Shown piece by piece: positions 18,701-21,700 of a DNA stretch of 64,000 bases (positions are counted from its first letter, which is position 1; every line of letters begins with the position of its first letter). The notes beneath the pieces are model-generated. The model was not told the origin of the DNA. It did no database searches and was given only the letters and a program-made list of their open reading frames with translations. Where the stretch lies: assembly GCF_037975245.1 (NCBI RefSeq), contig NC_092580.1:21562501-21626500 (forward strand), in the 5' to 3' direction. The position numbers and the translations under genes were made by a program. The stretch comes from Apostichopus japonicus. Taxonomy: Eukaryota > Echinodermata > Holothuroidea > Aspidochirotida > Stichopodidae.

Positions 18701-21700
18701 ATGTCTTCTACATATTAAACACTGTCTCTGTCGGTAATGAACCAAGCATTACTTCTTTTCTTCTTTAAAAGCGGGATGATGGCAGACAGGTTTACTCTGT
18801 AGAGCTTGAGAGAGGACCAACTGGGTTTGGTTTCAGCCTTAGAGGGGACAAAGAGTACAATACACCATTCTACATACTCAGAATGGCAGAAACTGGTCCT
18901 GCGGCTAGGCAGGGTATGATGAGGGTAAGTCTATCTTCTAAATATGACAAGTCTGTCCATTTAGTTGTCAAAGTCATGAGAGAACCAGTTAAAATGATTT
19001 TATTTTGTCCCTTCTTGTGGAAGTAATATACCAAAGAACCAAATAGTTGCTTTGAAGTTTGCAAAGGCGCTTACAACAGTTTAACATTTTCTTATTTGTG
19101 TGGAGTCAGTAATAAAGACTGAACATTCTAAAACTACATTTTTTTTTTTTGCATTGTAATTAAGGATGGCATTGTATCTACAAGCCATTTACAAATTGCA
19201 CAAGAAAAAAACAAGGAAGGATAAATGTTATGAATAATATCATATATTAAAATTTATTTGTCCTTTGTACTAATTAACTAATAATACAAAAATAATTGGC
19301 AGAGAGTAAAGTAAACCTGTCCCATATTTCACGATTGACCCAGGTCGCAGACAGAATGGAGGTCATTAAATAATTTCTAAAACAAAGTACGACAAAGTTA
19401 AGGTTTGTGATATATTTATGTCTGACTTAGCCGTTTCGTTAGATGCATGTTCGACTGCAGTGAGAACTGTCGTTCCATACATTTTCCGACATTTAGTTCT
19501 GGCCGTATATTTAATTTGTTTTTTGTTAATGAAGTGTAGCTCACTTCCTCATTTTATCTCCCATCATCATTTCTTCATCAATATCATCTCTAGGTTGGAG
19601 ACCAACTTTTACGAATCAATAACAATAGCACCGAAAATATGACGTACAAGGATGCCATTGAGTTTATCAGAACGGGAGGAAACAGAGTATCGCTGACCTT
19701 ACAGAGATTAAGACCCACAGGAAATAATGGTAAGAAAACAACTAATGAATAACAAAATATATAACAAACAAGTCATAACACAAAAAACTTTTTATTTCTT
19801 TTTCTGGGGGGAGGGGGGGGGGGCGGGGGTGGATTTTGTTATCCTTGAAAGAGAAGTTTTCTGTATTGTCACGTTAGTTCCCAAGGACACATGCAATAAA
19901 AAATCCCACAGAAAAGAATTTCAAATGCATAAAAGAAGTGCCCTAATTTTGTTGAAACATTGAAATTCTTCTCAACAAAAGTTTCATTTAGTACTGTAAA
20001 TTCACTGTTGCCAGAGATCCTAGAAATTTAGTCTGATTCCAGCAGCATACAAATAAGAAATTTCTTGAAATGAAGAGCTATTAGTTGAATGTAGTTAGAT
20101 TGACGGATGGTATAATTCCCCCAATCTTCTTCTTGTCCAACATTTAGTGCGACACCAGAGGCCAGTCTCCTTATTTTACCATTCAGGTAACATGAATGTG
20201 CTAGTGTTTGACGTTTTCTGTTTTCCCGAGAACCCTTATTAACGTATATTTATTGATCCTTTTCTTTACACTTTGAAATAAACTTAGAATTTGTACGTTC
20301 TTATCCAGTTATTATTATTGATTTGAAAGTGATTGATGATACTGTACGTTAAACTTTATTTGTAGCTACTCCTATTTAAAGTCTTGAAGGATTTTTGTTG
20401 AATAGTTTCTTGCATGACTAATAAAAGTTACTTGTTTGGTTTTTACATTTTAGCTCTAGATTTGTAAGTTTAAAACTTAATTTCTCTCTCTAAATTGCCA
20501 ACATTATTCCTAATCTTGTGGGATGTTTCGTTTATCACCTTTTGTAGTCCGACAACAGAGACCGGTCTCCTTATTTTACCCTTCAGGTAACATACCTTCC
20601 CTCCTTCCCTCGTTTGATTGTTGTACATCCCAATGCCAGCCATCCCATTTGTGTTTAATAGTTTGACTAATCATGAGAGGTAGATATCTGTACATTGTTG
20701 GTACAGTTGTCATGTACATTGAAACCAGACGGTAGTGTAGATAGATACCATGTAGAAGGTTATAAACATGTTTAGATAAACTCCATCCACTTTGTAATAA
20801 TAAAGTGTGTAGCTAAACTCAATCTACTTTGTGATAATAAAGTTTGTAGATAAACTCCATCCACTTTATAATGATAAAGTGTGTAGATTAACTCCATCCA
20901 CTTTATAATGATAAAGTGTGTAGATAAACTCCATCCACTTTATAATGATAAAGTGTGTAGATAAACTCCATCCACTTTATAATGATAAAGTGTGTAGATA
21001 AACTCCATCCACTTTATAACGATAAAGTGTGTAGATATACTCCATCCACTTTATAATGATAAAATGTGTAGATATACTCCATCCACTTTATAATGATAAA
21101 GTGTGTAGATAAACTCCATCCACTTTATAATGATAAAGTGTGTAGATATACTCCATCCACTTTATAATGATAAAGTGTGTAGATAAACTCCATCCACTTT
21201 ATAATGATAAAGTGTGTAGATAAACTCCATCCGCATTGTGATAATAAAATGGTAGTATAGAGGTCAGTAGATGGAATTTGTAACTTTAAACTTTTAAACC
21301 TGATCAAATATTGCTGTCTCGTTTTGAAAATAAATACTTTTTGATCTTCATGTTAGGTAAATAAAAATATTTAAAAAAAATCAAACCAACAAATTAAACT
21401 TGGCTGGATTTGTAAAGTTATGTAAAATAATTTTTGCATTATTGCATGTAGCAGTGTTATTATGATTTGTGAACTTGTTTACAAAGCTTGTTATTTTGTC
21501 AAGTTTGTTCCACACATGGAGGTATCACAATTTTCTGTCAGCCGTAGAGAGTTTTGGCCGTTTCTTGGGGCCTGACTGCGATGCTTGTTTGTTGATACTA
21601 ACCCCTAGATTCCAAACAGATCAATTGGATTTTCTCCCCCTATTTTTTTTTAGCAGGTTTTCATACTGTTTCTTTATTAAAAAATAAAAAATTGAATTGA

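Follow-up and report, generated by a model that had tools for sequence, protein, structure and literature searches.

Two similar 39-nt candidate exons directly after PDZ5 in an echinoderm MAGI gene

MAGI splice variants and tandem duplicated exons

Human MAGI1 is alternatively spliced downstream of PDZ5, where frameshifts give the A, B and C isoforms different C termini (PMC8428372). The pair of short candidate exons described here, termed a and b, may be regarded as an analogue of that variation in place, as splicing would likewise vary directly after PDZ5 of the same scaffold (PMC8428372). The two cases differ in outcome, however, since the human isoforms shift the reading frame and change the C terminus whereas the predicted a and b inserts keep both frame and tail. 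A short in-frame linker insert has also been described in MAGI2, comprising 14 residues between PDZ2 and PDZ3 (PMC8428372), but it belongs to a different linker and its description there mentions no tandem pair.

Exons duplicated in tandem form an established class (PMC9741552, PMC5740500, PMC9013439). Exons a and b resemble tandem duplicated and mutually exclusive exons in being neighbouring homologues of equal length and phase (PMC9741552, PMC5740500; for FGFR IIIb/IIIc, PMC5703972). They differ from the known cases in encoding just 13 residues, of which 11 are identical, in lying outside a domain, and in that the exclusion mechanisms tested do not apply. The MAGI pair is most likely a further case of the class, with its splicing predicted from sequence. 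Among the titles and abstract beginnings of the matches listed from the open-licence PMC literature, nothing dealt with this pair or with echinoderm MAGI splicing.

Neural microexons regulated by SRRM3/SRRM4 provide another comparison, being short in-frame exons which, like a and b, may occur in a scaffold gene. Such microexons have a usual limit of about 27 nt, which a and b exceed at 39 nt, and those dependent on SRRM3/4 (eMIC) carry a UGC motif just upstream of the acceptor. No TGC was found in the last 40 nt before the acceptor of either exon, and an SRRM4-type microexon was rejected on this ground.

Two homologous exons in the last MAGI intron

The window, a stretch of 64,000 nt, corresponds to C20:21562501-21626500 in a genome of 671.6 Mb. 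The last PDZ domain of the gene it carries is MAGI PDZ5: the two exons encoding it, when joined, gave MAGI1 (2r4h) as their best PDB match (E 7.9e-28, rank 1 of 266) and MAGI2 (1wfv) as the second-ranked of the 266 (E 2.1e-26). Features are listed below by window position; borders of MAGI exons other than those of a and b were placed by eye.

18772-18924, plus strand: MAGI exon encoding the first half of PDZ5, acceptor placed by eye
19594-19729, plus strand: MAGI exon encoding the second half of PDZ5, phase-1 end, donor GTAAGA
20145-20193, plus strand: whole similarity block at exon a, TAG + 39 nt + GTAACAT
20148-20186, plus strand: predicted exon a, 39 nt, phase 1-1
20187-20547, plus strand: predicted intron between exons a and b, 361 nt
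20545-20593, plus strand: whole similarity block at exon b, TAG + 39 nt + GTAACAT
20548-20586, plus strand: predicted exon b, 39 nt, phase 1-1
20666-20671, plus strand: second ACTAAY hexamer (ACTAAT), 80 nt downstream of exon b, perhaps there by chance
25215-25387, plus strand: last coding exon, stop included, ending SLPRTMRY

Both copies lie in the last intron of the gene, after the last PDZ-coding exon, are stop-free, and have AG upstream and GT downstream; their phase (1-1) is compatible both with the preceding exon, which stops at 19729 in phase 1, and with the last exon, which starts at 25215. The two have 34 of their 39 bases in common, and 11 of the 13 encoded residues. Of the five base differences, four affect the third base of a codon (three synonymous, one exchanging His and Gln), and the fifth, at a second position, exchanges His and Pro. 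This agrees with a preliminary description of two 39-nt exons of equal length and phase directly after MAGI PDZ5, with five base differences, four of them at third positions, and His to Gln/Pro swaps: coordinates, phases and peptides were rechecked, the differences recounted, and the identity of PDZ5 borne out by the PDB match. The spacing of exactly 400 bp given there is likewise correct from start to start, across a 361-nt spacer, although we see no evident meaning in the round number.

PDZ pieces are present upstream of PDZ5, and Pfam PDZ matches were obtained in two of the five MAGI-region open reading frames (seven frames scanned altogether). One piece (14126-14290) matched two MAGI2 chains at ranks 2 and 3, while for another (11741-11935) MAGI1/2 chains ranked 13th to 15th, after five repeat-protein chains and other PDZ proteins. 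A weak match to a guanylate-kinase-like exon, which may or may not be part of the gene, was obtained at C20:21515159-21515311 (E 6.6e-4), on the same strand and 67 kb upstream. The 27 listed WW matches all fall outside C20, in a search that intron-split exons could escape.

The gene region also contains several repeats. In a tandem array at 6748-8107 (199-nt unit, 6.8 copies), the unit repeats the terminal part of the immediately preceding MAGI exon and the donor of that exon; seven occurrences of ACTCAGGTAAGA were counted in this region (6703 to 7917), giving six additional copies of the donor. At 18277-18376 a 52-nt duplication spans the donor of another MAGI exon as well as the last bases before it; the second copy of this duplication, being also preceded by AG, resembles a 17-nt exon. 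A long array of TACAG-like units at 9962-11620, just upstream of a PDZ exon, has long open frames on both strands.

The similarity between a and b exceeds chance. Their local alignment scored 54 against 11.9 +/- 2.2 for shuffles, none of 200 reaching 54, and a search with exon a in 100 introns shuffled by dinucleotide gave at most 23/39, compared with the observed 34/39. The intron holds 20 AG-39-GT sites, among which the next-best pair after a/b shares 18/39 bases. Beyond the exons, the similarity continues for only 3 nt on the upstream side and 7 nt (GTAACAT) on the downstream side. The 150-nt upstream flanks scored 19 against 17.0 +/- 2.3 for shuffles, 47 of 200 reaching that score, and the downstream flanks scored 17 (reached by 123/200); with 40-nt flanks the scores were 13 upstream (58/200) and 14 downstream (77/200). 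The earlier statement that the flanking introns do not align thus stands at both flank lengths, except for the few bases next to the exons. Taken together, the sequence comparisons support a tandem duplication of one 39-nt MAGI exon directly after PDZ5.

No third copy of the exon was detected in the intron on either strand, the best match of 20/39 being inside the shuffle range (mean 20.5, maximum 23), and a DNA search of the 672-Mb genome with the exon block returned the two copies only. A genome search with a 22-base pattern, which scores only the best candidates, gave two exact places and four at three mismatches, against 12 for a reversed-pattern control. A dispersed repeat was rejected on the two places found by DNA search and on pattern matches fewer than those of the reversed control. 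An assembly duplication of the locus was likewise rejected, as a 541-nt region was found at a single place in the genome; the second PDZ5 exon (19594-19729) was likewise located just once. Among bacterial and archaeal contigs, 49 stretches fit the pattern and none was confirmed as a relative.

The window was also scanned for other AG-L-GT pairs (L 21-120 nt, at least 72% identity, at most 5 kb apart; 30 tandem-repeat intervals left out). The plus strand gave 19 rows, corresponding to five pairs of places whose edges were inspected, and the minus strand 17 rows, including the a/b pair read backwards as an AG/GT-bounded 47 nt. One plus-strand pair (14632-14724) belongs to a longer repeat crossing its AG/GT, and two are short (17/22 and 16/21 identical). 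The pair 49525-49603/51593-51671, by contrast, is identical at 71 of 79 bases, has AG/GT bounds and has edges as sharp as those of a/b, yet it is a dispersed repeat with three relatives (74-79% identity) on C11, C5 and C8. The length of its outermost reading (79 nt) is not divisible by three, but nested readings exist whose lengths are (51 and 63 nt). Because this repeat looks so similar, sharp edges and AG/GT bounds do not in themselves prove exons, and the case for a and b therefore rests jointly on frame, phase, donors and the absence of other copies.

These observations bear on whether the pair is non-exonic, being instead a repeat or a conserved non-coding element that chance has placed between AG and GT. 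The sharp-edged repeat with its nested readings, as well as the 47-nt minus-strand reading of a/b itself, would be in keeping with this. We nevertheless consider it very improbable, given that a and b are phase-matched and stop-free, that their similarity stops at the plus-strand junctions, and that no dispersed relatives were found for them, as against three for the repeat.

The 49525/51593 repeat flanks a 345-residue open frame (49948-50982) encoding C2H2 zinc fingers, with seven such stretches in the scanned part (50341-50982). A further open frame of 368 residues (53558-54661) is basic over a stretch close to the N terminus, and its best Pfam match stands at E 0.29.

Constraint on the pair and its age

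Comparison of the two copies gives three synonymous changes over 9.7 sites (dS 0.40; 95% interval of the proportion 0.07-0.65) and two non-synonymous changes over 29.3 sites (dN 0.07). Four of five differences at third positions has a probability of 0.045, and two or fewer amino-acid changes among five a probability of 0.10; with five differences, this bias is suggestive only as a signature of selection. Stronger evidence comes from a neutral simulation of duplicated 150-nt flanks (n=300 per divergence), on the assumption that the flanks were duplicated along with the exon. Simulated flanks were as unalignable as those observed in 0/300 runs at a divergence of 0.45, 4/300 at 0.6 and 32% of 300 at 0.8, and at the same divergences an identity of 34/39 without constraint has probabilities of 2.7e-3, 1.2e-4 and 1.9e-6, respectively. 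If the unit did include flanks, the restriction of similarity to the exons as opposed to the introns is the main support for a duplication kept by selection. The selected tandem duplication proposed in the preliminary description is therefore upheld by exon-limited similarity and simulation, while the third-position bias that it invoked is weak.

The age of the duplication is harder to judge. The probability of seeing at most three synonymous changes in ten is 0.19 at a divergence of 0.8 and 0.04 at 1.3, which counts against great age. The dS of about 0.40 is lower than the divergence of the flanks would lead one to expect, suggesting either that synonymous sites are also constrained or that hardly more than the exon itself was duplicated, and the latter would make both age and selection less certain. 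Great age, as read from the two copies, is accordingly unproven.

A short unit would also suit a different history, in which one working exon is accompanied by a spare or decaying copy left by a short, possibly not very old duplication of about 49 nt. The 49-nt extent of the similarity and the moderate dS are compatible with this, as is the occurrence of two other donor duplications in the same gene (18277-18376 and 6748-8107). Those duplications, however, are adjacent, head-to-tail and donor-spanning, with similarity running into the intron, unlike the copies of a/b, which start 400 nt apart around an unrelated spacer. As the reading frame and both splice sites are, moreover, intact in a and b, we regard a spare copy as improbable.

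Predicted splicing and candidate regulation

Our preferred reading, to which we assign a probability of about 0.55, is that a and b are two optional cassettes derived by tandem duplication, so that PDZ5 and the tail would be separated by zero, one or two inserts. A single 39-nt exon, situated in the MAGI intron that follows the last exon coding for a PDZ domain, would have been duplicated in tandem, and each copy would be defined independently, yielding transcripts with none, one or sometimes both. The stretch linking PDZ5 to the short C-terminal tail would accordingly be longer by 0, 13 or 26 residues. Since 11 of the 13 residues are identical, presence or absence, or copy number, is expected to alter the protein more than a swap of a for b.

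Both donors read CAG/GTAACA, with C at +5, while G occupies this position in six of the seven other MAGI donors that were assigned by eye. This difference, judged from seven neighbours at one position and without a splice-site score, fits optional inclusion. The acceptors of a and b each have pyrimidines at 16 of the 20 bases before the AG. Such pyrimidine-rich acceptors, together with a frame that is kept, would also be expected if both exons were constitutive and produced a fixed tandem peptide repeat of 26 residues, but we consider this unlikely in view of two donors that lack the G at +5 of most neighbours.

The possibility of mutually exclusive splicing raised in the preliminary description found little backing. 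Strict exclusion would place either a or b in each transcript, swapping His/Gln and His/Pro beside PDZ5, and the pair has the general properties that searches for such exons target, namely neighbouring homologous exons of similar length and the same reading frame (PMC5740500). A 361-nt spacer is not short, however, and steric interference involves a donor-branch point distance of <50 bp; because it accounts for 9% of mutually exclusive clusters (PMC5740500), its absence at a/b is mild evidence. Every inclusion pattern keeps the frame (39 = 3 x 13), so that neither double inclusion nor skipping would be penalised, both copies have GT-AG borders with no U2/U12 clash seen (no formal U12 scan), and the peptides differ at only two of 13 residues. 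Pairing between the first, second and third introns (the third represented by its first 182 nt) was not above that of shuffles, 97, 99 and 83 of 100 of which paired as well or better, and competing RNA structures were ruled against on this result. Structural reasons for exclusion of these kinds (spacer, U2/U12, frame, pairing) are not required in every known case, and we view strict exclusion as a tentative, rather doubtful alternative.

Inverted-repeat pairs number 15 in 19731-21300, a raw count with no expectation attached, and six are inside a minisatellite. This minisatellite (20769-21232; 37-nt unit, 12.5 copies) starts about 180 nt past exon b.

Under the optional-cassette reading, exon choice would, with less certainty, be governed by ordinary trans-acting factors that act through weak donors, and not by hard-wired exclusion. 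A single TGCATG is located at 20411 in the a-b intron (P=0.03) and a TCTT cluster upstream of exon a (P=0.006), both values being nominal among 36 tests (nine motifs x four regions). The TGCATG is adjoined by ACTAAT at 20417, ACTAAY being a motif that we take to be QKI-like. TGCATG, the two ACTAAY hexamers and the TCTT cluster are the sole regulator-like marks near a and b, and hint only weakly at regulation. Read-through past the donor of exon a would meet a stop at 20240-20242, with AATAAA at 20277, and AATAAA or ATTAAA is found at five places in 20187-21300; intronic polyadenylation after such read-through is possible, though we give it little weight.

The insert may, again less certainly, serve as a putative short linear motif, modulating the scaffold where PDZ5 meets the tail. 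Its QRPVSLFY core is unchanged in both copies and contains R-x-x-S, which presumably resembles a basophilic kinase site. A more ambitious proposal is a motif-dosage switch, in which ancient tandem short exons would set zero, one or two phosphorylatable 13-residue motifs beside PDZ5, having evolved independently in echinoderms at the spot of vertebrate MAGI1 A/B/C variation; we think it unlikely. If the exons are used, they would provide a very short example of the tandem duplicated class, close to the lower limit of 10 residues used in one standard search (PMC5740500). Their use would also make the junction after PDZ5 a place of MAGI splicing variation in more than one lineage, and would offer a small case of motif number set by splicing.

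Elsewhere in the genome, contig C29 carries mitochondrial cox1 in several pieces (14745-31219), with the 3' part at two places, and besides these a single long cox1 match lies on C35. Translated with TGA=W, AGR=S, AAA=N and ATA=I, as in the echinoderm code, the C35 cox1 gives a sensible reading on inspection by eye, and nad4L seems to come next, an order resembling that of echinoderms; we take the genome to be that of an echinoderm. The C29 pieces may mean that a further contig is mitochondrial-like, or they may have been inserted into the nuclear genome.
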